DNA from: Brenneria bubanii
Lineage (GTDB): Bacteria; Pseudomonadota; Gammaproteobacteria; Enterobacterales; Enterobacteriaceae
DNA: 64,000 nucleotides
Assembly: GCF_022378355.1 (NCBI RefSeq)
Contig: NZ_JAKMAJ010000005.1
Span: 186,001 to 250,000, forward strand
Direction of reading: 5' to 3'
Made by a program: the position numbers and the translations under genes. Below the pieces are notes generated by a model. It saw only the letters and a list, made by a program, of their open reading frames with translations, did not search any database and was not told the origin of the DNA. Positions 2,988 through 33,524 of the stretch are shown piece by piece (the first letter of the stretch is position 1; every line of letters begins with the position of its first letter).

Positions 2988-4445
<1,458 letters not shown>

Positions 4446-4529
4446 TTAGCATTTGATAAAATTGACCGGCATTGGTCGGTAAAAACGTTGTCGATGCGTT
4501 TGGCGCCTTAGCCCCGAGGTATAAACGTC

Positions 4530-4850
4530 TTAAGGCTTAAGCGCGGCGAGCTTCTTATGCAGATAAATAAGCTCCTCAACCAGTTCGCGACACAGCATCG
4601 CATTCATCAGGTGATCCTGCGCGTGAACCAAAATCAGGTTAACCGGAATTTTCCCGCTCCCTTCATCCGCTCCGATCAGCGCGGTCTGGATCTGATGAGC
4701 TTTGCGCGCGGCGGCGGAAGCATCCGCCAATAGCGCATCCGCCTTGCTCCAGTCGTCCTTTTTTGCGGCGCTCAGCGCTTCCATTGCGCAGGAGCGGGCC
4801 TCTCCGGCATGAATAATCAGCTCCATTACCGTATTTTCATCAATCACCAT
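4530..4850 (-). CDS. PTS lactose/cellobiose family IIA component
   Basis: 106 residues, the normal length of a Lac/Chb-type EIIA. The segment LVHAQDHLMNAMLCRELVEEL is the family's phosphorylation-site region, whose histidine accepts phosphate from HPr. The protein is all-helical and forms a trimer in known members. Its start overlaps the end of the IIC gene, implying translational coupling. It passes phosphate to the IIB protein encoded at 6173-6478. Confidence 0.93.
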   Translation of the reverse strand: MVIDENTVMELIIHAGEARSCAMEALSAAKKDDWSKADALLADASAAARKAHQIQTALIGADEGSGKIPVNLILVHAQDHLMNAMLCRELVEELIYLHKKLAALKP

Positions 4851-6157
4851 CAGTACCCCCCTTGCGGTTGCGCGCCCTCTTTTTCCTGCGCTAAAAGTTG
4901 ACGTTCATACATTTTGAAAAAAGGGTAATAAATCATCGCCGATACCATAATCAGCACCGCCACCAGCACAATGGCGCGCCAATCCCAACCGGTGGACCAG
5001 GCGGCGCCGATGGGCGCGGGCGTCGTCCAGGGCGCAAGCGATACCACATGGTTGACCAGCGAGGTTCTGGTGGCGACATAAGCGATAACGGCGTTGACCA
5101 ATGGCGCGGTAACGAACGGAATAAACAACAGCGGGTTCATCACCACCGGCGAACCGAAAATAACCGGTTCATTGATATTGAACATGCTGGGCACCACCGC
5201 CAGCTTGCCAATGGAACGCAGGTGCGCCGAGCGGCTGCGCAAATAGAGGAATACCAGTCCCATGGTCGAACCGGAGCCGCCCACCACGATAAAAAATTGC
5301 CAAAAGGGTTCGATAAAAATCTGAGTAATAGGCACGCCGGTGTTTAGCGCCTGCTGATTAATGCCCAGATTGGTCAGCCAGAAAGCCTGTAAAATCCCAC
5401 CGACAATCACCGCGCCGTGAATCCCGGCAAACCACAGCAGGTGGCATAACAGCACGGCAATCAAAATGGCAGGCAGAGAATCAGAAGCGGAGATGACCGG
5501 CGCGAAGATCGCCATAATCGCCTGCGGCAACAGCATGCCGAACTGGTTCTGAATAAACAGACTGAGCGGAAATAGCGTCAGAAAGATGGCGAGAATGGGA
5601 ATTAACAGATCAAAAGACTGGCGAATCTTCGGCGGCACCTGTTCCGGCAACCGGATGCCGATCTTGCGCTTCTGCAAAAAATTCATCAATTCAGTGGTAT
5701 AGAGCGCAACCAGAATGGCGGTGAAGATGCCTTCGCCCCCCAGCGACCCCACCGGCAAGCTATCGCCGGCTTGCGGAGCGGCCACCACCAGAAACGACAT
5801 CAGCGACAGGCTGCCCGCCATAAAACCGTTCATTTTGTAGCTTTGCGCCAGGTTATAGGCAATCGCGCTGGCGATATACAGCGCCATGATGCCCATGGTC
5901 ATATTGTAGGGCATCATAATCTGTTCGCTATGGCGCTCGACAAGCCCCAGCCACCACTGGGCGAATGCCCATCGACTGTCGGCGCTGAAGGGGGGATGGG
6001 CAAATAACAACATAAAGGAGCCGACGATCAAAAATGGCATCGAGGCAATGAAGCCATCTTTAATGGCTACCACGTGGCGTTGATTAGAAAGTTTCGCCGC
6101 CACCGGGCTGATGCGGTTTTCGATGAGGCTAAATAATGACTCACTGAATGTACTCAT
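4850..6157 (-). CDS. PTS cellobiose/beta-glucoside family IIC permease
   Basis: 435 residues, with the many hydrophobic segments of the CelB/ChbC EIIC family. Recognisable parts are the N-terminal FSESLFSLIENRISPVAAKLSNQRHV, which precedes the first membrane helix, the central SDSLPAILIAVLLCHLLWFAGIHG and the later FNINEPVIFGSPVVMNP substrate-region motif. It moves a beta-glucoside across the inner membrane while IIB phosphorylates it. The gap to IIB is 15 bp and it overlaps IIA, so B-C-A form one transcript on the minus strand. Confidence 0.94.
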   Translation of the reverse strand: MSTFSESLFSLIENRISPVAAKLSNQRHVVAIKDGFIASMPFLIVGSFMLLFAHPPFSADSRWAFAQWWLGLVERHSEQIMMPYNMTMGIMALYIASAIAYNLAQSYKMNGFMAGSLSLMSFLVVAAPQAGDSLPVGSLGGEGIFTAILVALYTTELMNFLQKRKIGIRLPEQVPPKIRQSFDLLIPILAIFLTLFPLSLFIQNQFGMLLPQAIMAIFAPVISASDSLPAILIAVLLCHLLWFAGIHGAVIVGGILQAFWLTNLGINQQALNTGVPITQIFIEPFWQFFIVVGGSGSTMGLVFLYLRSRSAHLRSIGKLAVVPSMFNINEPVIFGSPVVMNPLLFIPFVTAPLVNAVIAYVATRTSLVNHVVSLAPWTTPAPIGAAWSTGWDWRAIVLVAVLIMVSAMIYYPFFKMYERQLLAQEKEGAQPQGGY

Positions 6158-21411: not shown

Positions 21412-22776
21412 ATGAGCCATTCCGACACCATCGTAGCCCAGGCCACGCCACCAGGACGCGGCGGGGTAGGCATTCTGCGCGTATCCGGCCCTGCGGCGTC
21501 GGCCGTCGCGCAAAGCGTACTGGGTAAACAGCCCAAACCGCGTTACGCCGATTATCTGCCGTTTCGCGATACCGACGGGGCAACGCTCGATCAAGGGATC
21601 GCCTTGTGGTTTCCCGGTCCAAACTCGTTCACCGGCGAGGACATACTGGAGCTTCAGGGACACGGCGGCCCGGTTATTCTCGATATCCTGCTGCAACGTA
21701 TTCTGGCCTTGCCGAACGTGCGTATTGCGCGCCCCGGAGAGTTTTCCGAGCGCGCATTCCTCAACGACAAGCTGGATTTGACGCAGGCGGAAGCTATTGC
21801 CGACCTGATTGACGCCAGCTCTGAGCAGGCCGCGCGTTCCGCGTTGAGTTCTCTGCAAGGGGTATTTTCCACCCGCATCAACCATCTGGTTGAAACCTTA
21901 ACCCATCTGCGCATTTACGTTGAAGCCGCCATCGATTTTCCCGATGAGGAAATTGATTTCCTCTCCGATGGCAAAATTGAAGGCCAGCTCAACAATGTGA
22001 TGGCCGATCTGGATGCCGTCAGAGCCGAAGCTCATCAGGGCAGCCTGCTGCGCGAAGGTATGAAGGTGGTGATCGCCGGACGGCCTAATGCTGGAAAATC
22101 CAGCTTGCTCAATGCATTAGCCGGACGGGAAGCGGCGATTGTCACCGATATCGCCGGCACGACCCGCGACGTGCTGCGCGAGCATATTCATATTGATGGC
22201 ATGCCGCTGCACATCATTGATACCGCAGGCCTGCGTGATGCCAATGATGAGGTTGAACGTATCGGCATCGAACGCGCCTGGCAGGAAATTGAACAGGCCG
22301 ACCGCGTGCTGTTCATGGTCGATGGCACCACCACCGAAGCCATCGAGCCGGCAGCCATCTGGCCGGAATTTATGGCGCGGTTGCCCAGCGCCTTACCGAT
22401 TACCGTAGTACGCAATAAAGCCGATATAACCGGAGAGACGCTGGGCATCGAAGATGTGAATACTCACTCACTTATTCGCCTGTCGGCCCGTACCGGCGAA
22501 GGCATTGAGACGTTGCGCGAACACCTCAAGCAAAGTATGGGATTCATCAGTAATACGGAAGGCGGCTTTCTGGCGCGCCGCCGGCATCTGCAGGCGCTGG
22601 AACAGGCAGCCCAGCATCTGCTGCAAGGCAAAGATCAGTTAGTGAGCGCTTACGCAGGTGAACTGTTAGCCGAAGAGCTGCGCCTGGCGCAGCAGTGTCT
22701 AAGCGAGATTACTGGCGAATTCACCTCAGACGACCTGCTAGGCCGCATTTTCTCCAGCTTCTGTATCGGCAAGTAA
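21412..22776 (+). CDS. mnmE: tRNA modification GTPase MnmE (TrmE/ThdF)
   Basis: 454 residues, E. coli length, from [22 protein letters not shown]-terminal tetrahydrofolate-binding domain, helical domain, and G domain with [16 protein letters not shown] and NKAD. The last residues CIGK contain the conserved C-terminal cysteine. With MnmG it makes the cmnm5 modification of wobble uridine. The start at 21412 is chosen over an extension to 21373 that runs through the yidC terminator. The final codons (TTC TGT ATC GGC AAG TAA) form the attachment site of the island downstream, leaving the gene intact. Confidence 0.97.
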
Positions 22777-22897
22777 CGCTGAGTCTGTAAGCGTCCACTC
22801 ACTTCCACACATCCCGCATAGCACCTTGTTATGCGGGATTTTTTGTTCCATCGATGTCTATTCGCTTCTACCAAGAGCCAGGGATTTTTGTGTCCAT
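22754..22897. repeat. Left attachment repeat (attL) including mnmE 3' end and terminator
   Basis: The segment 22775-22897 matches 32310-32432 at all but four positions (three in the terminator loop, one at 22853). Just inside mnmE, CCAGCTTCTGTATCG (22754-22768) is repeated as CCAGCTTCTGCATCG at 32295-32309, with GCAAGT missing from the right copy. The strand exchange site is most likely in this shared CCAGCTTCTG-ATCG core. Confidence 0.82.
22811..22846 (+). terminator. Terminator after mnmE, inside attL
   Basis: ATCCCGCATA (22811-22820) pairs with TATGCGGGAT (22830-22839), then a T-run. The duplicate at 32346-32380 keeps the stem exactly and differs only in the loop. Confidence 0.85.
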
Positions 22898-23080
22898 AGC
22901 TGTGTCCATCGTCATTTTTTCCTTGTGTCCATGGTTGTTTTTTGAGCAATAATTCGCGTATTATGGACACACAGCGCAGTACAAAAAACAATCGAACTTC
23001 GCAAACCATGGACACATCAGGCATGTTTTACTCTAAAAAACCATACATAACATAAAGATACCATCATCACATATGGACAC
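22889..23080. promoter_or_regulatory. Cluster of integrase arm-type sites between attL and int
   Basis: Six copies of the 9-mer TGTGTCCAT or its inverse: direct at 22889, 22901 and 22924; inverted (ATGGACACA) at 22963 and 23008; and ATGGACAC at 23073. The first two are 12 bp apart. Such repeats beside a tyrosine integrase are normally its arm-binding sites. Nothing else is seen in the 318-bp gap before int. Confidence 0.7.
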
Positions 23081-23095
23081 GTTAAAGAGGTACAT

Positions 23096-24322
23096 ATGGC
23101 GCTTTCAGATACAAAAATCAGAAGTCTGTCAGCAAAAAGTCGGGCATATCAGGTTGCCGACAACGGCGGGCTGGTCATAGAAGTACTGCCCACGGGCCGC
23201 AAGGTCTGGCGCTTGCGCTACCGTTTCAACGGCAAGTCACAGAAAGCGACGCTGGGCGAATACCCCGCTTTCTCGCTGGCGGAAGCGCGCCTTTGGCGTG
23301 AAAAATGCCGCTCGATGATTGCCCATGGCGTCAGCCCGGCACAGAAAAAGCAGGAAGAGAAAGCCAAACAGAAAGAGCCGACCACCGTCGAAGCCTTCGC
23401 CAAACGCTGGCTGACCGACATTATCGAAAAAACCACCCGCCAGCCGCGCAATGTAGTCCGCGTTATCAATAAAGACATTATCCCGGTTATCGGTCACATC
23501 CAGCTTGAAGCACTTACCACCGCCGACGTACAGACGGTGATCGATCGCATCAAACTGCGTGGTTCGGACCACGTCGCCCTGCTCACCCGCAACGTTCTGA
23601 AACGTATGCTGGCCTATGCCATCTCGCGCGGCATCATCTTTAACAACCCCGCCGCTGCCATTGAGGCTCGTTATATTGCGCAGGCTACCAGCCGTGACGT
23701 GGCGCTGACCCCACAAGAAATCGGCATACTGCTGCGCGGCATTTATACCTCGGGCATGAACCGGCGACATAAGTTAGCGTTGCATCTGCTGATTTTGTGC
23801 ATGGTGCGTAAAAGCGAGCTTATTGAAGCGACATGGGATGAAATGAATTTCGTTACCGCCGAATGGCGCATCCCTGCCGAACGCATGAAAATGGATAATC
23901 CACATATCGTCCCGCTCTCCGGCCAGGCATTGGCAATGTTTGAAGAACTTAAATTTCTGGCTGGCGACTCACCCTATGTTTTCCCCAGCCGCAACGACTA
24001 TCGCCACCCTATTTCCAAAACCACCTTAAATACCGCCGTGCGCACGCTGAATCTCGACGTTCGGGATTTCGTTATCCATGATTTCCGCCGCACGGCCAGC
24101 ACATTACTGCACGAACAGGGCTACAACTCTGATTGGGTGGAAAAATCTCTGGCTCACAAGATTTCAGGCGTGCGCGGCGTCTACAACCGCGCGGAATATC
24201 TCGGACAGCGCCGGGAAATGCTTCAGGCATGGGCGGATTTTGTCGATGCGCAGATTGAAGAAGGCCGTAAGGTGATTATCGGCCGGTTTGGGAAGGCATA
24301 TAAAGCGGACACTGACGGTTAG
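23096..24322 (+). CDS. P4-type tyrosine integrase
   Basis: 408 residues. N-terminal arm-binding DUF4102-type domain (ALSDTKIRSLSAKSRAYQVADNGGLVIEVLPTG), SAM-like core-binding domain about 105-190, and catalytic domain with Arg in CMVRKSELIEATWDE, His-x-x-Arg in VIHDFRRTASTLL, a later His (SLAHKISGVRGVYNR) and the nucleophile Tyr in GVYNRAEY. It catalyses integration and excision at mnmE. It lies next to attL and reads inward, the usual P4-family position. An ATG with AAAGAGG upstream fixes the start. Confidence 0.95.
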   Translation: MALSDTKIRSLSAKSRAYQVADNGGLVIEVLPTGRKVWRLRYRFNGKSQKATLGEYPAFSLAEARLWREKCRSMIAHGVSPAQKKQEEKAKQKEPTTVEAFAKRWLTDIIEKTTRQPRNVVRVINKDIIPVIGHIQLEALTTADVQTVIDRIKLRGSDHVALLTRNVLKRMLAYAISRGIIFNNPAAAIEARYIAQATSRDVALTPQEIGILLRGIYTSGMNRRHKLALHLLILCMVRKSELIEATWDEMNFVTAEWRIPAERMKMDNPHIVPLSGQALAMFEELKFLAGDSPYVFPSRNDYRHPISKTTLNTAVRTLNLDVRDFVIHDFRRTASTLLHEQGYNSDWVEKSLAHKISGVRGVYNRAEYLGQRREMLQAWADFVDAQIEEGRKVIIGRFGKAYKADTDG

Positions 24323-24351
24323 CCCTGATTGTCTTATTGCGCGTCTACAAA

Positions 24352-24406
24352 ACTACGATAGTCGTAGTATCTGCAACTCCTCATAACTACGACTATCGTA
24401 GTTATG
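24352..24406. promoter_or_regulatory. Paired palindromic operators, one covering the start codon of the first XRE repressor
   Basis: Operator 1: ACTACGA-TAG-TCGTAGT (24352-24368). Operator 2: CATAACTACGA-CTA-TCGTAGTTATG (24382-24406), 11-bp arms that include the ATG at 24404. Centres are 34 bp apart. The same core (CTACGA-N3-TCGTAG) recurs twice, again 34 bp apart, before the paralogous gene at 25100. Binding by the adjacent XRE proteins is inferred. Confidence 0.78.
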
Positions 24407-24721
24407 AACACACCTCGATCACATAGCGATATTTTCAGCAAACGTTTAAAGGATGCCCGGCAGTTGCGGGGGCTGTCCCAGAAAGGGCTGGGTATCGCCG
24501 CCGGCATTGATGAGTTCGTTGCCAGCGCGCGCATTAACCGCTACGAGAAAGGCGTCCACGAAGCCAATATAATGACAGCCAGCCGTCTGGCGCAGGCGTT
24601 ACATGTCCCGCTGGCGTACTTCTACGCGGACGACGATAATCTGGCGAAGATGATCCTGAAATTCTCCGAACTGCCTGCCGCGCAACAAACCAGGCTACTT
24701 GCTTCGCTCGATAGCCAATGA
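24404..24721 (+). CDS. XRE-family phage-type repressor (paralogue A)
   Basis: 105 residues. Helix-turn-helix in the N-terminal half (RLKDARQLRGLSQKGLGIAAGIDEFVASARINRYEKGVHEAN), then a short helical tail after the conserved VPLAYFYADD. Closely similar throughout to the gene at 25100. There is no Shine-Dalgarno: the ATG is the last codon of an operator palindrome, so the mRNA may be leaderless and repression would be direct. Likely regulates island genes including the divergent Ner-like gene; targets are inferred from the shared operators. Confidence 0.85.
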   Translation: MNTPRSHSDIFSKRLKDARQLRGLSQKGLGIAAGIDEFVASARINRYEKGVHEANIMTASRLAQALHVPLAYFYADDDNLAKMILKFSELPAAQQTRLLASLDSQ

Positions 24722-24740
24722 ACAAAGTAACGCGATCGCG

Positions 24741-25001
24741 TTACTCAGGCCGCTTCCCTCTGATTTTCACCTTTCGGTCGATGAGTTTCCCCACCCCATC
24801 GTAGTAACGGCTCGGCCAGATCTCGGCAGGATGAATGCCCAAAGCGTCAGCGATTAACCATTCGCCTTTCGGCCACGGGCGTGTCAGCACATTTGCCAGC
24901 GTGGATGAACTTAATCCGGCGGAGCGGGAAAGCGCAGCCATTGTTGTGCCCTGTTTGCGCAAAGCGGCGATAATATCTGCCTGATGCCAGTCGTTTTTCA
25001 T
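24741..25001 (-). CDS. Ner/Nlp-family small DNA-binding regulator
   Basis: 86 residues from MKNDWHQADIIAALRKQGTTMAALSRSAGLSSSTLANVLTRPWPKGEWLIADALGIHPAEIWPSRY, the pattern of phage Mu Ner and SfsB/Nlp regulators. The start at 25001 has AGGGGG six bases upstream; a longer in-frame reading to 25079 would run into the operators at 25046-25066 and is rejected. It lies between the two XRE paralogues, on the opposite strand, and is divergent from the second, so both must share the operator region 25002-25099. Probably part of the island's lysogeny/maintenance switch. Confidence 0.85.
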   Translation of the reverse strand: MKNDWHQADIIAALRKQGTTMAALSRSAGLSSSTLANVLTRPWPKGEWLIADALGIHPAEIWPSRYYDGVGKLIDRKVKIRGKRPE

Positions 25002-25045
25002 GTGACCCCCTAACCTTTCGTCGTAAAAGGAACATGCACAACTCA

Positions 25046-25097
25046 ATACTACGTTATTCGTAGTATCACGCTCAAGCAAAAACTACGATTCTCGTAG
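25046..25097. promoter_or_regulatory. Second pair of palindromic operators
   Basis: Operator 3: ATACTACG-TTATT-CGTAGTAT (25046-25066). Operator 4: CTACGA-TTC-TCGTAG (25083-25097), two bases before the ATG at 25100. Centre-to-centre distance is 34 bp, equal to the first pair. They lie between the divergent Ner-like gene and the second XRE gene. Confidence 0.75.
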
Positions 25098-25099
25098 CC

Positions 25100-25438
25100 A
25101 TGAAGAGCAAACCCAATTATCACGACATTTTCTGTCAGCGGCTTAAGCAGGCGCGTCTGGCGAAAGGGCTATCGCAAAAACAGCTTGGCATTGAGGCCGG
25201 GATCGATGAATTTGTCGCCAGTCCCCGCATCAATCGTTACGAAAGAGGCGTGCATGAAGCCAACACCGAGACGATTCAACTGCTGGCGGATGTGCTGGGC
25301 GTACCGTTAGCCTATTTTTACACCGCCGATAATGAACTAGCCGAACTGATACTGGCATTTCAGGCTCTGTCGTCAGAGGACAAACCGGAAGTTCTGGCGC
25401 TGGTGAAAAGCCGGGCTGAACGGCCTCGTCAGGCGTGA
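25100..25438 (+). CDS. XRE-family phage-type repressor (paralogue B)
   Basis: 112 residues, strongly similar to the product at 24404 (shared LSQKQLGIEAGIDEFVAS, INRYE+GVHEAN, VPLAYFY). The HTH occupies about residues 12-70; the C-terminal tail is longer and charged. As with its paralogue, the ATG directly follows an operator and no ribosome site is visible, suggesting a leaderless message. Gene and operator pair were evidently duplicated together. The following 190 bp (25439-25629), up to the convergent primase gene, hold nothing recognisable. Confidence 0.85.
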   Translation: MKSKPNYHDIFCQRLKQARLAKGLSQKQLGIEAGIDEFVASPRINRYERGVHEANTETIQLLADVLGVPLAYFYTADNELAELILAFQALSSEDKPEVLALVKSRAERPRQA

Positions 25439-25629
25439 TTTCCCCCATTTTCCTTTGACCCGCCAGCGCCACACTTTTGCCCCCACTGAAAACAGACATA
25501 TCCCTGCTCAGACCAGTCATAGCGCAGCATTGAGCGATTCCCCCCACCTGGGCGTCATATACAGGCGGGAAGTGGGGGGATCCGGTTTTTTTGGGCCGGA
25601 TCCCCCCATCAGTACCACCATGTTCCCGT

Positions 25630-27633
25630 TTATTCCCCCATATACCCGGCAAGGCGGATCGTTTCTCCCTCCAGCTCAATCAGGCCGTCTTTCTCCAGCT
25701 TGAGCAGCCAGCGGGTAAACTTTTTATCCACATTCATCCCTTTTACGCGCAGATCGTCGCGCAACTGCGATCGGGTACAGACTTCGCGCGCCTTAAGAGC
25801 CTGCCAGACAGCGATGTGATTGGCGGTCAGATGGGGGATACCGGCCAACTCCGGGTAAGCATCGATTCCGTCCCGAAGTTCCCTCGGTTGGTCGTTCAGC
25901 ACCAGCGAATCAACCGGCTCGCCGTCCTCATCAACATAGACCGTAACCGGCGTAAGGTCGTAAGCCGCCGGCGCGGGCGGTTCGGCATCTTTCATTTTGG
26001 TACAGCTCAATACCAGCGCATTGCCGTTACTTTCCCGCCGCACGTTGAACTCCGCATCCAGCGCGGCCTGAAACGCGCTGGAGCCGCGCGCGCCGCGCTC
26101 CAGATCTTTGCCGGAATGATGAACGATCAACACCGATGCCTGCGTAGCGGCCTTGATGGTATCGCACCCCTGAATAAATGCGCCCATATCCTTAGCCGTA
26201 TTTTCATCTGAGCCGCCAAAGCAACGGGCCAGCGTATCGAGAATAATCAACCGGACCGGCATTCCGGTCTCTCGTTTAACGTCATTCGCCGCCTGTATTA
26301 CCTGCTTTACGCTCTCGCTACTGGCCGGAAATACCGGACAATCGACCCGAAACAGGGTATCGACAGGGCTGCTGCCGTTCAGCGTCTGCTCCCAGGCGCG
26401 GATCCGCCGCGGCACGCCGATACCGCCTTCACCCACCACATAAATCACCGCGCCCTGATTGACCAGCCGGTTGGCCCACGGTTTACCGGTGGCGATATGG
26501 CAGGCCCAGGATACCGCCAGAAACGATTTATACGACCCGCTGGCCCCGTAGATACTGCACAATGAATGACCGGCGAGATGCCCCTTAATCAGGTAATCCT
26601 GCCGGGCATCGTAGCCCTCAGAGCCCCGGCGCAGCGGCAGCGTGGAGGTAAAGACGAGCTCATGGTTATCGGGAGTCATAATGGGCATCTCCATGGAAGA
26701 AAGCTGGCGATAAAAAGTGCGTCGGGCAACGTCACGGCCGTTATGACGCAGATAATCGTCCCAGTCGGCGGCGATATCGCCGGGCGGCAATACGGCAAAG
26801 CCGTTCACCTGTCGGGCGGCATATTCGGCCTGTTTCCGGCCGGTGTTTTCACCTGCGCCATTATCGTTATCGCCAGCCAGGATAAGGCGGGTATGAGGAT
26901 GTTTTTCACGTAAGGCTCGGGCCACATGCAGCAGGTTACTCGCCGACAAAGCCGCATAGGCCGCAACGCCTGTCAGAGACTGGACCGCCAGCGCCGTGGC
27001 GTAACCTTCGGCGATGGCGATGTCGGGATGACCTTCACCGGCAGGCAAAGCAATAAAACTACCTTTCAGCCGCGAACCGGGCAGCAGACGTTTATCGCCT
27101 GCGGGGCTGATAAGCTGCGCGCCGGTCATATTGCCTTCGCTATCCCGAAGCATTAACACCAGCGAACCCGGCCCGAAAACGGCATCGGCAATATGCATTG
27201 GAGCACCCTCAGTCAGTACGTGCTCACTTCGTTGATACCCCTTAGCCTGCAAATAAGGCGACTCACCACAGGCACAGCGGGACAGCAACGCTGAAACCTT
27301 CTCGCTGATATCTGGCGGTGAAGATTGCGCTTTTTCCCTGGCTGGCGATGTCGCCTGCCTGTCTTCCACCGAGGCGACCAGCTTTGCCGCCTCCGTCAGG
27401 GAGCACTGATGCACTTTCGCTACCAGATCCAGACCGTCACCGGCCCGGCACTGATTGCAGAACCAGGTGCCCCGGCCTTCAAGGTCATCGAAACGAAAAC
27501 GGTCTTTACCGCCACAAATCGGGCAGGGGCCGTGGTGATGGTGGGCCGGAACGCGGATATTTAACGCAGAAAGAACGGCAGGCCAGCGATAACAAGCGCT
27601 ATGGGTTATCTCAGTAACAAACTTACCCGTCAT
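25630..27633 (-). CDS. Primase-helicase: zinc finger, TOPRIM and RepA-type ATPase
   Basis: 667 residues. N-terminal zinc finger (CPICGGKDRFRFDD..GTWFCNQCRAGDG, about residues 37-65), TOPRIM domain with EGYATALA and GDNDNG (about 205-275), then a RecA-like RepA/AAA_25 helicase with Walker A GASGSYKSF and Walker B LIILDTLAR, and a C-terminal winged-helix-like tail. It resembles P4 alpha-type and satellite replication proteins, so the island may replicate after excision. It overlaps the upstream recombinase gene by 4 bp (ATGA). Its codon usage and GC are like the chromosome, unlike the retron. Confidence 0.92.
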   Translation of the reverse strand: MTGKFVTEITHSACYRWPAVLSALNIRVPAHHHHGPCPICGGKDRFRFDDLEGRGTWFCNQCRAGDGLDLVAKVHQCSLTEAAKLVASVEDRQATSPAREKAQSSPPDISEKVSALLSRCACGESPYLQAKGYQRSEHVLTEGAPMHIADAVFGPGSLVLMLRDSEGNMTGAQLISPAGDKRLLPGSRLKGSFIALPAGEGHPDIAIAEGYATALAVQSLTGVAAYAALSASNLLHVARALREKHPHTRLILAGDNDNGAGENTGRKQAEYAARQVNGFAVLPPGDIAADWDDYLRHNGRDVARRTFYRQLSSMEMPIMTPDNHELVFTSTLPLRRGSEGYDARQDYLIKGHLAGHSLCSIYGASGSYKSFLAVSWACHIATGKPWANRLVNQGAVIYVVGEGGIGVPRRIRAWEQTLNGSSPVDTLFRVDCPVFPASSESVKQVIQAANDVKRETGMPVRLIILDTLARCFGGSDENTAKDMGAFIQGCDTIKAATQASVLIVHHSGKDLERGARGSSAFQAALDAEFNVRRESNGNALVLSCTKMKDAEPPAPAAYDLTPVTVYVDEDGEPVDSLVLNDQPRELRDGIDAYPELAGIPHLTANHIAVWQALKAREVCTRSQLRDDLRVKGMNVDKKFTRWLLKLEKDGLIELEGETIRLAGYMGE

Positions 27634-28511
27634 TGTGCCACCTCCTGCCCGTACACCTGCCGGATGTAGCGCCCGCGTCCGTCGCCATGGCCTAAATCCA
27701 TTGATGTCAGCGCACAGGCTTCCCTGCGGCTGAAGCCCTGCTGCCGGTAATGGCGAATGGCATCCTGAGCCCAGGCATAGCGCAGACTGTGCGGGGAATA
27801 TTGTCCTTTCAGACCGGCCGAAGTGGTTTGGTAGTGCCAGCGATTCATGGCGGTTTTCAGGTCGGGTTTGTCAATCAGGCGGCCGTTACGCGTAGCGGCA
27901 ATTGCTAACGCTTCACGGACAACCTGCGTCACGGCCTCACGGTTCAACACCATGGTCTGGCGCGGACGCCCGCCTTTGGTGCCGTAGACAACCGGCAGAC
28001 GTTCGTCGCCCCTGGCCAGCGCCGCGGCCCAATAGGATAGCGACTGCGAGCACTGCACCGCCTCCTGCGAGCGCAGGCCCATCAGCCGGGCCAGTTGCAG
28101 CGTGACGGCTACGCCGGCATCTTTTTGCCGCCGGGTGGTCAGGACGACCTGATAATGCTCTGGGGTAATGGCGGCGCGCGTGCCGCTCCGGCTGGCGCCA
28201 CCTAATCCCAGCGCTTTATTGCTAATCCGTTCGGATCCCGCCAGTGTTTCCCGCCCGGCCTCACGCAAAATAACGCGCACCGCCGCCATCTCATTGTGCA
28301 ACGTACGCAGCGATATTCCCTGCGTAAGACGGTCGGCGATGTAACTCTCTATATGTTTCGCTTTCAGATGCTGTACCGAACGTACCTGAATATTCAGCGA
28401 CAGCAGATGACGGCCGATCCGCTCGGCCATTTTCAGCCGATCGTGAACGGTCTTGTAACTGCCGGCGGCCCGCCGGGCCAGTTTCTGCATCTCACGAGTT
28501 AACTGTGACAT
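27630..28511 (-). CDS. Second tyrosine recombinase (integrase-domain protein) in the replication operon
   Basis: 293 residues from MSQLTREMQKLARRAAG; GAGG lies eight bases upstream, so the longer reading to 28616 is rejected. The catalytic set is visible: Arg in MGLRSQEAV, His-x-x-Arg in SPHSLRYAWA, His in LGHGDGRGRYI and a candidate Tyr in IRQVYGQ. The N-terminal half is helical with a SAM-like core. It is unrelated in detail to the integrase at 23096. Its job could be resolution of multimers, excision control or integration elsewhere; none is shown. Cotranscribed with the primase-helicase. Confidence 0.8.
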   Translation of the reverse strand: MSQLTREMQKLARRAAGSYKTVHDRLKMAERIGRHLLSLNIQVRSVQHLKAKHIESYIADRLTQGISLRTLHNEMAAVRVILREAGRETLAGSERISNKALGLGGASRSGTRAAITPEHYQVVLTTRRQKDAGVAVTLQLARLMGLRSQEAVQCSQSLSYWAAALARGDERLPVVYGTKGGRPRQTMVLNREAVTQVVREALAIAATRNGRLIDKPDLKTAMNRWHYQTTSAGLKGQYSPHSLRYAWAQDAIRHYRQQGFSRREACALTSMDLGHGDGRGRYIRQVYGQEVAQ

Positions 28512-28807
28512 AGCGTTTACCTCAGTCTTCGGCGCGTGGTTACCTGCGACACAGGGCGAGCCTGTGCCGTGCTGAACAATACCTGTGCGCCGGAGTGTCT
28601 GGGGTTTGGGTATCACGGGAACCGGTTATGCACTCAGTGCAACCGCCTGCGTCAGCAGGAACGTTCCCCAGGCTGAAAGCCTGCCTCAGGTATCGGTTCA
28701 GTCCTCCTTAGTTGAATGGTTGATAAATGTTGACGCAGCAAACAGGGCGTCAGATGACAGGTCGCGTCGGAAAAAGAGACAGCACAAGCGCTGGCGCGGC
28801 GGCCGGG

Positions 28808-28849
28808 GCAACGTCACTTCGAGCCGCGCAGCGGACGAAGTGACGTTGC
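28808..28849. repeat. Perfect 14-bp inverted repeat with an inner hairpin
   Basis: GCAACGTCACTTCG (28808-28821) and CGAAGTGACGTTGC (28836-28849) are exact complements; the 14-nt loop contains CCGC-GCA-GCGG. No T-run follows on either strand, so it is not an ordinary terminator. Position upstream of the replication operon makes an origin or control site conceivable. Confidence 0.7.
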
Positions 28850-29333
28850 TGCCTCATGGATAGACCTGGCTGAGGCAGTAAAAGGCCACGGCCACCGGTA
28901 GCGCCAGTTCCGAACGATTGATAAATACAGGTCATGCGTCAGAGATAACACCGCGTAGAGATAAAACAGGCCGCACGATTTCGGGCTAACGAAAGCCGCG
29001 AATACGCTAAGAGCAGAACAGAGATGCAGCCATGATGGCGCAGGAAAAGAAGGTTGCTACCACCGCCGAAGCGGCCACCCGCGCTGCCGGTAGCGTTAGC
29101 GGGTTGGGCGTCGACCACACAGGTTTGGCCTGTACGTTGCCTGGAAGGTCGTGGCAACTTGGGATGCTATAGGGAGTCAATTTATTGTGTGGTATATATT
29201 ACACTAATGTTAAAAAACCAGCAAGATGCCTTCTTCCATGCATTCCATGTGAACTTATTAACTCACATGTGTTCCATACACTAAAGAGAATACTTGCATA
29301 AGATTAGTTTTACATAGTTAATTCATTGACACA

Positions 29334-29363
29334 TTGAAAAAATTACAACCTTTTGATTATTAT
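29334..29363 (+). promoter_or_regulatory. Possible sigma-70 promoter of the retron operon
   Basis: TTGAAA (29334-29339), 18-base spacer, TATTAT (29358-29363). This would leave a leader of about 180 nt before the PRTase gene. The surrounding DNA is so AT-rich that chance matches are common; support is weak. Confidence 0.3.
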
Positions 29364-29552
29364 AGTGAAATATCGAACTGTATACTTTATACCGAGATCA
29401 GTAAATCAGGATAAAAACTCTAAAAAGCTAGATTTTGCTTATAAACCAACCTATAATATTATAGATTTTATAAGAGGGATAAATTGTATTTAAATATAAT
29501 TTATTCATAACACTGACTTCTATAATTAAATATTTTATTCTAGTGAACAGCA

Positions 29553-30410
29553 ATGAACGAAAGACAATTATTCAGCATTACTCTCCAGCTATATAAAAAG
29601 CAACCATGGCTGGCTGACAAACATACTGAAGTAATGAGTTTACTTTACGAAGATTGCAGAAGTAGTGATGAAAGAGAATTATTGATTGAGCTACTTAATA
29701 GATTTAATTTTTTAGAAGAAAAAGAATTTAATCATTCTTTAAACAGGTTAGCCGATGAAATTGTTAATGATAAAGAAATTGAAAGTAGAACCACACAAAT
29801 AGTATCATTAACTGCCGATAATTACTCAGATAGCGGACAAAGTATTTTATATGCATTAAAACCCAGACTTGAAAAACGAGAATGGAGAGAACATTTATCA
29901 ATTAATAGATTTGGTTCATCATATAAAGAGTTTATTCGTAACGGGGGAAAACACAAAAATATTTTATTTATTGATGAATATATTGGTAGTGGACAGACAG
30001 CCATTGGTAGGGTTGATTCTTTAAAAAAACAATATAGTGAAAAAGGAATTGAAGATATTCATATAAAATTAATTGTAATTGCTGCATCATCTTTAGGGGT
30101 ACACAATTTAAAAGAAAAAGGAATAGAGATGACTTGCATGCATGAAATAAAAAGAGGTATTAGTGATTACTATAAAGACGAGAATGAAATTATAAAACAT
30201 TTAGGTGTTATGAATAAAATTGAAGATATACTATCACAATCATATAACGAAAAACCACTACCTAAAATGGGATTTGGTAGCACTGAATCCTTGTATGGAA
30301 GGGAGTATGGGAATACACCAAACAATGTTTTTCCTATTTTCTGGTGGCCTTTTTATCGTGACACATCTAAAAGGCAAACTATTTTAACAAGAGCGATGAG
30401 AGATGCCTAA
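29553..30410 (+). CDS. Retron effector: phosphoribosyltransferase-fold protein (PRTase-CE type)
   Basis: 285 residues. The phosphoribosyltransferase PRPP-loop signature is clear at residues 137-150, ILFIDEYIGSGQTA (hydrophobic strand, Asp-Glu, then Gly-Ser-Gly-x-Thr). The N-terminal 70 residues are helical, and the tail ends PIFWWPFYRD..RQTILTRAMRDA. PRTase-fold proteins of this kind accompany retrons and other conflict systems; as in the Ec73-type retron the enzyme is expected to be the toxic effector, held inactive with msDNA and RT until phage attack. The substrate is unknown. Its stop codon directly abuts the next ATG. Very AT-rich with rare-codon use, unlike the flanking genes. Confidence 0.85.
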   Translation: MNERQLFSITLQLYKKQPWLADKHTEVMSLLYEDCRSSDERELLIELLNRFNFLEEKEFNHSLNRLADEIVNDKEIESRTTQIVSLTADNYSDSGQSILYALKPRLEKREWREHLSINRFGSSYKEFIRNGGKHKNILFIDEYIGSGQTAIGRVDSLKKQYSEKGIEDIHIKLIVIAASSLGVHNLKEKGIEMTCMHEIKRGISDYYKDENEIIKHLGVMNKIEDILSQSYNEKPLPKMGFGSTESLYGREYGNTPNNVFPIFWWPFYRDTSKRQTILTRAMRDA

Positions 30411-30758
30411 ATGGGAAAATATATGTCAGAAATAGAACGAGATATTTTAACATTTTTATTTAAATCATCAGCAGGGTTAGATGCTTTCACTTTATTCAAA
30501 AGAGTAAAAATCCCTTTTTCTGAATTTTCAAAAGCATTATTTTTACTCTCAGATAAAAATTTCGTTGAAGAGTCAAGAGAAGAGTTCTATAAAATCACAC
30601 CTGCCGGGCGCAACATGCTATCTTCTGTATCGTCAAATAAAAAAAATGCTAATTGGAGAGAAATACCCGAAAGATTCCGGGAGATTAGTTTACCCGTAAA
30701 CTCATACTATGTGCCAAGTATTAAATTGCTTGATAAAGACACTTTTAATGTTGAATAA
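30411..30758 (+). CDS. Retron accessory winged-helix protein
   Basis: 115 residues, or 111 if the second ATG at 30423 is used (GGGA lies six bases before it). The body ERDILTFLFKSSAGLDAFTLFKRVKIPFSEFSKALFLLSDKNFVEESREEFYKITPAGRNML reads as a winged helix: two helices, a recognition helix, then a beta-wing ending in the typical KITPAGR turn. Fused end to end with the PRTase gene and followed 19 bp later by the msr-msd RNA. In known PRTase retrons a small HTH protein is the partner that may contact msDNA or the effector. Confidence 0.82.
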   Translation: MGKYMSEIERDILTFLFKSSAGLDAFTLFKRVKIPFSEFSKALFLLSDKNFVEESREEFYKITPAGRNMLSSVSSNKKNANWREIPERFREISLPVNSYYVPSIKLLDKDTFNVE

Positions 30759-30777
30759 GTCATGGTAACCTATTATT

Positions 30778-30996
30778 GGCTTGTGGAAGCTAGTGCGTTG
30801 GAGTGTAGTCGCTCCTTGGTTAAGGTTCACTTTAACCAAAGACCAGACAAGAATTTTGTAACCAAAATTCCCGTCTGGTCGCTTCGAATAGCTATGCTAT
30901 TCTCGCGGTTCTTTCAAGAACGAGATGTCGCGTCTCGCAACATCTCGTTCTCGAAGAGAACGAACTGCTTAGTATAGAAGGTAGTTTTCACAAGCC
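30778..30996 (+). ncRNA. Retron msr-msd noncoding RNA
   Basis: The two ends pair as a1/a2: GGCTTGTGGAAGCTA (30778-30792) with TAGTTTTCACAAGCC (30982-30996), 15 pairs including two G-U. After a1 comes a G (30793) placed like a branching guanosine. msr stems: GGAGTG/CGCTCC (30800-30815), TTGGTTAA/TTAACCAA (30816-30839), and a two-part stem 30841-30880 (GACCAGAC/GTCTGGTC enclosing GAATTTTG/CAAAATTC). msd stems: GAATAGC/GCTATTC (30886-30902) and a long hairpin 30905-30968 with a 12-bp inner arm (30917-30928 with 30940-30951). The RT gene starts 31 bp later. A 71-codon ORF across it is rejected. The exact msr/msd border is inferred. Confidence 0.88.
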
Positions 30997-31027
30997 GCTT
31001 CAACATACCGCCTCAAGGATCTTTTTC

Positions 31028-32041
31028 GTGAATAATAACTGGCATGACTATTTAGCTGATAGAGGATTAAATAACGCTCTTATAGAGGAATATTTAGCTT
31101 ATATAAATAGACTTGAAGAAAATTCAATCCCAGTCATTTTTGAAAATGAACACTTATCCAGACTACTAGGAATAAAATACCCAGAATTTAACAAACTCAT
31201 ATTCGGCACTCATAAATTCTATAGAAAATTCAAAATACCAAAAAGAAAGGGAGGATACAGAATTATTGCATCCCCGTATCCTTCATTATTTTCCTGTCAG
31301 AAATGGATATATAATAATATATTAAAAAAAATCCCAACACATGTTTGTGCGCAAGCATATAAAAAAGATCACTCTATAATAAAAAACGCAAACCTTCATT
31401 TAAATAACGATGTTATGTTAAAAATGGATATTAATAATTTCTTCTCTGAAATACCTATCAACTGGGTTATAAAATTATTTAGCGATCTTGGCTACTCAAA
31501 AAATGTATCTTTTGCTCTAGCATCATTATGCTGTCTCGATGGTGTTTTACCTCAAGGGGGGGTAACTAGCCCTGCGCTAAGCAATATTTTAATGCTCTCC
31601 CTCGATAATAGATTACATAAACTAGCCGAGAAATTTGACTTAATATATACACGTTATGCAGATGATATGTTTTTTTCTGGAAAGAAAATATCATCAAAAT
31701 TAATTAATTACATTAAAAACATCGTAGAAGAATACAATCTTTCAATTAATGAAAGCAAAACAAAATTACTAACAAAAGAAAAACGAAAAATAGTTACAGG
31801 AATAGATACTAGTAGCTCTAAATTAACATTACCACGGGCCACTAGACGCAATATAAAAAAATCCATGCATTTTATAATAAAATATGGTCTTATCGGACAC
31901 ATGAATAATGTAAAAATAAAAAATCCTAACTACCTTCTTTCATTAGAAGGCAAGATACGATTTTGGCTCCAAGTAGAACCAGAAAATCAAGAAGCTTTAT
32001 ATTTCCTCAACGAGATCTTAAAAATAAAGAAATTATCATAA
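31028..32041 (+). CDS. Retron reverse transcriptase
   Basis: 337 residues from GTG at 31028, with AAGGA at 31015-31019. Retron hallmarks are all present: NANLH at 120-124 (NAxxH), first catalytic Asp in MDINNFF (134), QGGVTSP at 176-182, YADD at 210-213 and VTG at 256-258. Length is typical for a compact retron RT without fused domains. It primes from the 2'-OH of a guanosine in msr and copies msd into msDNA. The msr-msd lies immediately upstream, the PRTase and winged-helix genes before that. AT-rich like its partners. No second RT or template-repeat/variable-repeat pair is seen. Confidence 0.96.
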   Translation: MNNNWHDYLADRGLNNALIEEYLAYINRLEENSIPVIFENEHLSRLLGIKYPEFNKLIFGTHKFYRKFKIPKRKGGYRIIASPYPSLFSCQKWIYNNILKKIPTHVCAQAYKKDHSIIKNANLHLNNDVMLKMDINNFFSEIPINWVIKLFSDLGYSKNVSFALASLCCLDGVLPQGGVTSPALSNILMLSLDNRLHKLAEKFDLIYTRYADDMFFSGKKISSKLINYIKNIVEEYNLSINESKTKLLTKEKRKIVTGIDTSSSKLTLPRATRRNIKKSMHFIIKYGLIGHMNNVKIKNPNYLLSLEGKIRFWLQVEPENQEALYFLNEILKIKKLS

Positions 32042-32218
32042 TAGCTAAATATTATACAACAGTTGGTAAGTCATCTAATATGAAAATTTTAATAAGCTCC
32101 ATAAATACAATAATATTAATGTAAATAAGTAAGTACCTATCAATAGGAAAAGTATCTACTTACCCACTTGAAACCTTGTTTCACATGATATGATCTACTG
32201 CTGAAAACCAATGATTCT

Positions 32219-32239
32219 TGTGTCCATAAATGTGCCCAT
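32219..32239. promoter_or_regulatory. Right-arm integrase sites
   Basis: TGTGTCCAT at 32219-32227 and TGTGCCCAT at 32231-32239, 12 bp apart, the same spacing as the first two left-arm sites. They lie between the retron and attR in the otherwise gene-free segment 32042-32294. Confidence 0.6.
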
Positions 32240-32294
32240 CGCACAAAAACGCACCAACAAACATAATGATAAATCAAACAGATAAAACAAAATT

Positions 32295-32432
32295 CCAGCT
32301 TCTGCATCGAACGCTGAGTCTGTAAGCGTCCACTCACTTCCACACATCCCGCATAGCTGCCTGTTATGCGGGATTTTTTGTTCCATCTATGTCTATTCGC
32401 TTCTACCAAGAGCCAGGGATTTTTGTGTCCAT
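32295..32432. repeat. Right attachment repeat (attR)
   Basis: CCAGCTTCTGCATCG (32295-32309), a copy of the mnmE 3' end lacking GCAAGT, followed by 123 bp (32310-32432) that match 22775-22897 with four differences, including a copy of the mnmE terminator. Confidence 0.82.
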
Positions 32433-32520
32433 CAATGTGCCCATGGACGATTTTCCGTGTGCCTTGGTTTATTTTTTGAACTGAAGATAATACTAAAACG
32501 CCCGCAGGCGTTTTGTACTT
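32433..32520. other. Degenerate left-arm-like sequence beyond attR, probable relic of another element
   Basis: After attR the sequence keeps aligning with the left arm: TGTGTCCAT, TGTGCCCAT (32436-32444), then GTGTGCCTTGG and a T-rich run matching the order at 22889-22945, but diverged. A hairpin AAAACGCC/GGCGTTTT (32495-32514) follows. From 32521 to 32762 nothing is recognised before the DDAH gene. This is what the left end of a second, decayed element would look like. Confidence 0.5.
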
Positions 32521-32762
32521 TACTGACGGTGACGTGATGCGCCGGCAGGCCGACGACTGCTACCTGACTCGCCAAGACATACATGCAATCACCGTAGTAG
32601 CGGAATGAAAGGCAGAGGCAAACAACAGCGGAATAGGTCGCGAAAGCGGTGATATACAGCGTAAATAGGTGGCCCGGCGGGGCGATTCGACCTGACCGGC
32701 GCCAACATCCGCCTGATAATCAAGTCAATATGTTCAGTTTTTCTTCCGTTAAGAGAGCCGTT

Positions 32763-33524
32763 ATGCATTTTACTCAAGCCATTGCCCGACTGCCCGCCGA
32801 TACCTGTGGTTCCGGTCAGACTACCGCCCGTCTCGGCGCCCCGGATATTTCCGCAACCGGTCGCCAGTTTCTGGCCTATGTGGATGCGTTGCTTCGCCTC
32901 GGCCTGAAAGTCACCGTACTGCCTGCCGCGCCGGCGTTTCCGGATGCGCATTTTGTTGAAGATACCGCCGTGGTAATGCCGGAGCTGGCGGTTATCACGC
33001 ACCCGGGCGCGCCCAGCCGTCAAGGCGAAGAAGAGAGTATTGCGCCCGTATTGACCGGATTTCGGCCGATAACCCGCATGAGCGAACGCGGTCATCTGGA
33101 CGGCGGCGATGTACTGCTGGTGGATAAGCATTTTTTTATCGGCCTGACCGCGCGCACCGATGAGGCGGGAATCGCCGAGTTTGCCGCGGCGGTAGAACCG
33201 CATGGCTACAGGGTGACGTCAATCGAAGTCAGCGCCGGCCTACATCTGAAATCCATCGTTAACTATGCCGGCGGTAATACGCTGCTGCTGACCGAAGACT
33301 ATCAACGCCATCCGGCGTTTGCCGCCTTCAACAAGATCGTTATTCCCGAAGAGGAATCCTATGCGGGTAACACCTTGTGGATTAACGATACGCTGATCAC
33401 CCCACGGGGCTACCCCTACACGCTGGCGCAAATAGAAAAGCTGGGCATGCCGATTATCCAGCTCGATACCAGCGAATTTAAAAAAATGGATGGCGGGCTG
33501 ACCTGTCTGTCGCTACGTTTCTAA
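32763..33524 (+). CDS. Dimethylarginine dimethylaminohydrolase-family amidinotransferase-fold enzyme
   Basis: 253 residues from the ATG at 32763, with AAGAGAG at 32751-32757; a longer reading to 32649 lacks family sequence and a ribosome site. The guanidino-group hydrolase fold is shown by FVEDTAVV (Glu66, Asp67), HLDGGDVLL, His161 in LHLKS and the nucleophile Cys248 in DGGLTCLSLRF. DDAHs convert N-omega-methylarginines to citrulline plus methylamines. Cotranscribed with a polar amino-acid binding protein and permeases, so it probably acts on an imported arginine derivative. Plain arginine or another guanidino compound remains possible. Confidence 0.85.
   Translation: MHFTQAIARLPADTCGSGQTTARLGAPDISATGRQFLAYVDALLRLGLKVTVLPAAPAFPDAHFVEDTAVVMPELAVITHPGAPSRQGEEESIAPVLTGFRPITRMSERGHLDGGDVLLVDKHFFIGLTARTDEAGIAEFAAAVEPHGYRVTSIEVSAGLHLKSIVNYAGGNTLLLTEDYQRHPAFAAFNKIVIPEEESYAGNTLWINDTLITPRGYPYTLAQIEKLGMPIIQLDTSEFKKMDGGLTCLSLRF

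Follow-up and report, generated by a model that had tools for sequence, protein, structure and literature searches.

The window, a stretch of 64,000 nucleotides (nt) from Brenneria bubanii (contig NZ_JAKMAJ010000005.1, positions 186,001 to 250,000), carries a retron operon at 29553-32041, limits that are given by the gene ends. In gene order, a phosphoribosyltransferase (PRTase)-fold protein comes first and a winged-helix (WH) protein second; after them come a structured RNA and finally the retron reverse transcriptase (RT). All three retron open reading frames (ORFs) are open and complete and run in one direction, the third being set off from the second by 269 nt. The locus is a complete type III-A retron operon and as such a fresh member of an already described family. 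Its features and those of the surrounding island are collected in Table 1.

Table 1. Features of the retron operon and its island, in positions of the window.
Feature	Position	Strand	Basis
PRTase_III-A effector (PRTase-CE)	29553..30410	+	285 aa; phosphoribosyl pyrophosphate (PRPP) loop ILFIDEYIGSGQTA, D141 invariant
WH partner, WH_III-A	30411..30758	+	115 aa; PADLOC 3e-32; predicted model with winged-helix matches
msr-msd RNA	30776..30998	+	fold z -8.9; covariance model 98.7 bits, E 9e-20; covariation
Retron RT, type III-A	31028..32041	+	337 aa, GTG start; NANLH/YADD/VTG; PADLOC; tree
a1	30777-30792	+	pairs with a2, 30982-30997
RNA stem 1	30800-30815	+	
RNA stem 2	30816-30839	+	
Variable RNA stems	30841-30880, 30886-30902, 30905-30968	+	
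Candidate branch guanosine, 2'-5' priming	30793..30793	+	next to a1/a2 helix; putative role, from known retrons
A+T-rich leader of retron cargo, presumed promoter region	29184..29552	.	GC 0.26 (composition)
Tyrosine integrase of island	23096..24322	+	Pfam Arm-DNA-bind_3, Phage_integrase; phrog_1 integrase 6e-73
Primase/helicase-like replication protein of island	25630..27633	-	Zn_Ribbon_Prim, Toprim_3, AAA_25; PHROG DNA primase
Second tyrosine-recombinase-family protein (Integrase_1)	27630..28616	-	PF12835 6.7e-62, PF12834 1.2e-38
Left end repeat, starting in last bases of mnmE	22766..22919	+	direct repeat, 90% identical to 32301-32454
Right end repeat of island	32301..32454	+	parts also match the stretch directly after mnmE in genus-mates

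Gene content and type of the operon

Retron-class RTs are marked by the motifs NAxxH, YxDD and VTG. The RT of the window holds them as NANLH, YADD and VTG, and the PRPP loop ILFIDEYIGSGQTA is present in the first ORF, as the original prediction had read them. The PADLOC models place all three proteins in type III-A (PRTase_III-A 1.4e-97, WH_III-A 3e-32, RT_III-A 3.4e-139), with the RT reaching 461.2 bits against RT_III-A versus 266 bits for the next RT type (E 1.2e-79) and 188.6 bits for RT_IX. Together with the Pfam matches above cut-offs (PRTase-CE 3e-31, RVT_1 1e-23) they exclude chance in the profile search that had been suggested as a check, and they bear out the predicted full retron with PRTase, WH protein, RNA and RT, its pairing of a PRTase with a helix-turn-helix (HTH) partner (PRTase-CE in Pfam, WH_III-A in PADLOC) and its type III, which becomes III-A by PADLOC and RT clade. 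In the NCBIfam scan, the RT came out barely over the St85-family cut-off (240.4 versus 235), and no name was returned for the PRTase or the WH protein. Retron-class RT motifs, RT grouping, a PRTase gene, a WH gene and an RNA with pairing ends adjoining the RT are all found for type III-A, and the subtype is probably III-A1.

The predicted fold of the effector is that of a type I PRTase, in which the aspartate of the PRPP loop (D141) is kept, and the second acid of the loop is glutamate or aspartate in 17 of the 19 aligned PRTases. A sequence and profile search of the PDB found no close relative of the PRTase, the best profile match being a guanine PRTase (E 0.0017); a weak PDB match (E 0.008) was rejected as chance. 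The WH protein stays under Pfam's own cut-off (HTH_45, 21.1 versus 25.5 bits), and its identity draws on the PADLOC model, on synteny and on a predicted fold with winged-helix neighbours. This model (predicted local distance difference test 81.3, predicted template modelling score 0.60) yielded winged-helix structural matches with a best E of 1.7e-3, and MarR- and DtxR-type regulators that bind DNA are among its nearest folds. The search of the PDB by sequence and profile gave no close relative for this protein either, with a metal-dependent regulator as best profile match (E 0.0004).

From the RT and WH searches we drew 33 loci, the near-copies L004/L014/L015, L005/L018 and L021-L023 included. 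PRTase, WH and RT genes stand in this order on one strand in 23 of the 33 loci, in four a PRTase and an RT were detected but no WH protein, and in six an RT only; as the loci came from RT and WH searches, these counts are no frequency in nature. Hosts of the relatives include Enterovibrio, Pseudomonas, Massilia, Acinetobacter, rhizobia and viral contigs. The nearest RTs with partner genes are those of L106 (55% identical over 200 residues) and L008 (52%), and beside the RTs of L002 and L003 (36-38% identical) no PRTase or WH protein was found within the flank of about 1.5 kb examined. Matches to the RT are rare near the window: they occur in 3/197 relatives at E 1e-40, of which L002 and L003 are the two besides the window's own genome, and in 3/394 genomes of the order at E 1e-60, the own genome again being counted; this genome holds one match to the RT of the window at E up to 0.001. 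The WH model matches 7/369 genomes of the class, again with the own genome included and with five weak matches (E 1e-4 to 7e-4), at a threshold also passed by 4/14 control genomes. A search for the retron DNA in E. coli genomes (20,395 records) returned no match.

For the RT tree, 47 of 98 RT rows were used with a quick method without bootstrap. In it the window belongs to a clade of 13 rows that without exception have PRTase and WH, supported by a Shimodaira-Hasegawa-like approximate likelihood ratio test value of 99, with L106 and L008 nearest; the RT, whose position outside retrons had been named as the outcome that would speak against the prediction, lies inside a clade of PRTase/WH retrons. 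The PRTase/WH label needs three changes on this tree, because L026 (PRTase/WH) sits apart and L007 (no partner genes) stands among the others. L007, on a plasmid of Bacteroides finegoldii, encodes its III-A RT (1.8e-104) at 3803-4933 between DUF5686 and DUF3320 genes, with PRTase or WH not detected. This lone III-A RT somewhat resembles Retron-Sda1 (PMC12548924) in its situation. In Acinetobacter cumulans WCHAc060092, the same III-A retron is present on the chromosome and again on a plasmid, and the scores are equal (L014, L004/L015).

Among described systems, type III-A1 retrons (PMC12548924, in which Ppe1 and Bpu1 are listed as III-A) have PRTase and WH genes, a III-A RT and a structured non-coding RNA in common with the window, and the III-A typing stems from PADLOC in that paper as well as here. 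Ppe1 and Bpu1 differ from the window in host and island and are likened to it by description. The original prediction had assigned the operon to the Ec73 type, and this part of it was not supported: the locus listed as Ec73, in E. coli M10, scores as NDT_II-A and RT_II-A and not as PRTase/WH. A table row of PMC8934634 lists the position of the Ec73 RT in E. coli M10 with an identity of 36%, and the effector and RT at this position belong to the RefSeq retron St85 family and carry the NDT_II-A and RT_II-A scores. In view of the 36% identity in the table row, the E. coli M10 locus may be a mere Ec73 relative. It shares a retron RT with the window and has a primase-helicase gene nearby, but Ec73 and the St85 family combine an NDT effector with RT_II-A where the window has PRTase/WH, and Ec73 was rejected as closest relative on account of that effector and RT. 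Ec73 is called type I-A in PMC8565338, and neither the literature passages compared nor our tests lend support to Ec73 as a type III or PRTase/WH retron.

The msr-msd RNA

The intergenic gap folds at -109 kcal/mol versus a mean of -65 for shuffled sequences (z -8.9), and none of 200 shuffles was as low. An ORF of 71 aa at 30762-30977 was rejected as a gene because it overlies the RNA. Homologous gaps were taken from 18 other loci, so that 19 RNAs were folded with that of the window included; 12 of the 19 make up the structural alignment, and L005, L006, L012, L016, L017, L026 and L107 lie outside it. Throughout the 12 aligned RNAs a 5' core is kept, consisting of a1, an invariant TAGT and a first stem with an invariant GTCGCT, as is a 3' core ahead of a2, whose commonest form is AGTATAGAAGGTA and in which AGT and GTA are invariant. 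The stems between the two cores vary freely in sequence and length, and conserved cores with free variation between them are the pattern expected of a conserved msr beside a variable msd. Retrons from Pseudomonas sp. (L010, L011), Enterovibrio (L008) and Acinetobacter (L004, L013) show the gene order and the RNA core (TAGT, GTCGCT, AGT, GTA) of the window, but their stems between the two cores are unlike its own in sequence and length; L008 and L010 have III-A scores in all three genes.

Of the cells in the named structure 98.4% pair, compared with 37-50% for slid versions. Both sides have changed at 9 of the 15 pairs of the a1/a2 end helix, and the covariation score was reached by 0/500 shuffles. 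A covariance model (R1) built from 11 homologous RNAs, with that of the window excluded, locates the window RNA at 30775-30998 with 98.7 bits (E 9e-20), and up to E 10 the 64 kb hold no other match. Fold energy, covariance model and covarying end helix thereby all agree with the pairing RNA ends that had been predicted. R1 misses the RNA of L005, L006, L017, L026 and L107, all with PRTase-WH-RT, and gives weak matches to L016 (E 1e-4) and L012 (E 0.07); in total it matches 4/18 loci, two of which are near-copies of model members. As the more distant III-A loci are missed, the evidence for the RNA core extends no farther than the nearer branch.

The guanosine at 30793 is invariant in 12/12 RNAs and unpaired in the consensus structure, where it adjoins the a1/a2 helix, and by analogy with known retrons it is likely the branch point for 2'-5' priming. 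No Rfam family was assigned to the RNA at gathering score, and the matches below it (mir-49, snoMe28S) were rejected as chance.

The island at the 3' end of mnmE

The operon is cargo of a 9.5 kb island at the 3' end of mnmE, which is bracketed by a pair of 154-nt repeats (90% identical). After the end of mnmE at 22776 follow the integrase gene from 23096, HTH genes, the primase-like gene and the Integrase_1 gene. The core genes of the island have a GC content of 0.53-0.61 and the retron cargo outside the RNA one of 0.26-0.31, with 0.46 for the RNA. Integrase genes, end repeats and a genus-mate with the same core confirm the mobile island that had been proposed. In this genus-mate (G008), the same core lies beside mnmE and is 96.9% identical over 24349-29176 (4.8 kb), whereas a 577-base mnmE stretch is 86% identical. 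The match ends at 29176, inside an Rfam radC RNA match on the minus strand (29056-29183), and the cargo differs beyond; a corresponding breakpoint lies in L129 near 7406. Past the breakpoint, G008 encodes a PDC-S02/Mrr-like protein, a type I methyltransferase and a specificity subunit (matches for three of the five proteins scanned), with no restriction subunit among the five. One island core carries the retron in one species of the genus and restriction-modification genes in another, a clean example of defence-cargo exchange that points to a slot for defence cargo at mnmE.

The mnmE stretch itself was found in 10/10 genus genomes, the own genome included. G008 aside, the main match of the eight others to the window runs no farther than about 125 nt past mnmE, in sequence that reached about 1.5 kb beyond the gene; farther out there are short matching stretches and, in G006, a related integrase with 79% DNA identity. 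Like islands of the type of Salmonella genomic island 1 (SGI1), the island has a tyrosine integrase and sits at the 3' end of mnmE/trmE. This end is the known SGI1 site (PMC8409611, PMC2297512), and a retron with an int2 gene is also described downstream of mnmE/trmE in S. Typhimurium (PMC2972765), so both the site and the presence of a retron there have precedents. A III-A retron at mnmE, or an exchange with restriction-modification genes, was not met in the literature passages searched. The SGI1 genes mpsAB, traN and traHG are absent from the matches of the nine island proteins scanned, which were to integrase, HTH, primase and retron families only, with smaller ORFs unscanned and AcaCD sites not searched.

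An EFASI RNA match lies at 28573-28701 on the minus strand, at the start of the Integrase_1 gene. Such an RNA was found in 20/20 Integrase_1 loci scanned, that of the window included (24 genomes had a match), and a radC RNA nearby in 7/20; possibly EFASI acts as a leader element for this recombinase family and is no free small RNA. Just left of the right end repeat, an extra partial copy at 32195-32241 (74% identical over 47 nt) may stem from an older or tandem insertion. Directly right of the island, the gene at 32750-33520 found no match at the DNA level in the other nine genomes of the genus, hence this flank, too, may have been acquired.

Proposed mode of action

A retron typically keeps its toxic effector bound in a complex of RT, RNA and DNA, from which a phage trigger releases it (PMC12548924). 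Following the example of other retrons, the RT would prime on the RNA, likely at G30793, and copy part of it into multicopy single-stranded DNA (msDNA), giving an RT-msDNA-RNA particle that the WH protein would bind and with which it would keep the PRTase complexed and inactive. A phage factor acting on the msDNA by binding, cutting or modification, or one dislodging the WH protein, would then free or rearrange the PRTase, which may stop the cell before phage release through PRPP chemistry directed at a nucleotide or a nucleic acid. By the same analogy, msDNA, complex, trigger and abortive infection would be shared with other retrons, and the two partner proteins probably stop phages by shutting the cell down. 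The window contributes the genes, their order and the RNA with its conserved pairing, to which a predicted PRTase fold is added, and we consider it likely that the operon is a type III-A defence operon working in this way.

Several points weigh against this reading. The III-A retron Bpu1 made RT-DNA yet gave no defence versus 12 E. coli phages, also when overexpressed (PMC12548924), so that III-A systems cannot be counted on to defend; attempts to bring Ppe1 into E. coli failed, for which the authors presume toxicity (PMC12548924). The second PRPP-loop acid is asparagine in two Acinetobacter copies among the 19 aligned and hence not strictly kept, and the count of further pair types of the RNA is not above chance (311/500 shuffles as high). 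Furthermore, the suggested contact of the WH protein with msDNA would be borrowed from another type with a different effector, namely type IX, in which a phage HTH protein mirroring the WH protein of the retron binds msDNA and unleashes a HEPN RNase (PMC13405049).

The type IX retron Kva2 of that study resembles the window in a partner set that includes a winged-helix protein but differs in its HEPN RNase effector, where the window has a PRTase. A PRTase is likewise proposed as suicide effector in the DprA-PRTase system of P2-like phages, for which DprA is the proposed sensor (PMC9122126); the two PRTases are likened by description, and the mode of action of such PRTases was stated as unknown in 2022 (PMC9122126). 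A tentative and rather doubtful extension would see the WH protein as a built-in stand-in for phage DNA-binding proteins, which sits on msDNA and keeps the PRTase silent until phage proteins of similar fold displace it. Types III-A and IX would then share one sensing principle with exchangeable killers (PRTase and HEPN), and the PRTase would kill by a PRPP-dependent modification not met for retrons in the literature passages compared. PRTase retrons are a named class whose effector chemistry is functionally open, and the present copy, being intact and compact and with an RNA core defined over 12 sequences, offers a usable test case.

Instead of defending the cell, the operon might be a selfish addiction module with the PRTase as toxin and RT-msDNA-WH as antitoxin, which keeps the island in the chromosome and for which phage defence is secondary or absent. 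Its place as cargo on an integrase island between direct repeats would fit, as would the missing defence of Bpu1 in the phage panel and the presumed toxicity of untransformable Ppe1 (PMC12548924); the genus-mate, however, fills the slot with restriction-modification genes, which suits a defence slot, and addiction and defence are compatible with each other. We regard this reading as improbable. The WH protein could also serve mainly as transcriptional repressor of the operon and stay outside the retron complex, a role to which the MarR- and DtxR-like folds nearest to its model point. It lies, however, between PRTase and RT in 23/23 loci having all three, and type IX likewise involves a WH protein (PMC13405049), making this role unlikely. 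Promoter-like matches in the leader region do not exceed background (12 versus 18.1 in shuffles; one lies at 29334), as would suit an operon that is silent or decayed, with intact genes and no msDNA made in this host, but we hold this to be most improbable, given that no sign of decay was seen and that the window copy has three complete ORFs, the NANLH/YADD/VTG motifs and the kept pairing of the RNA.
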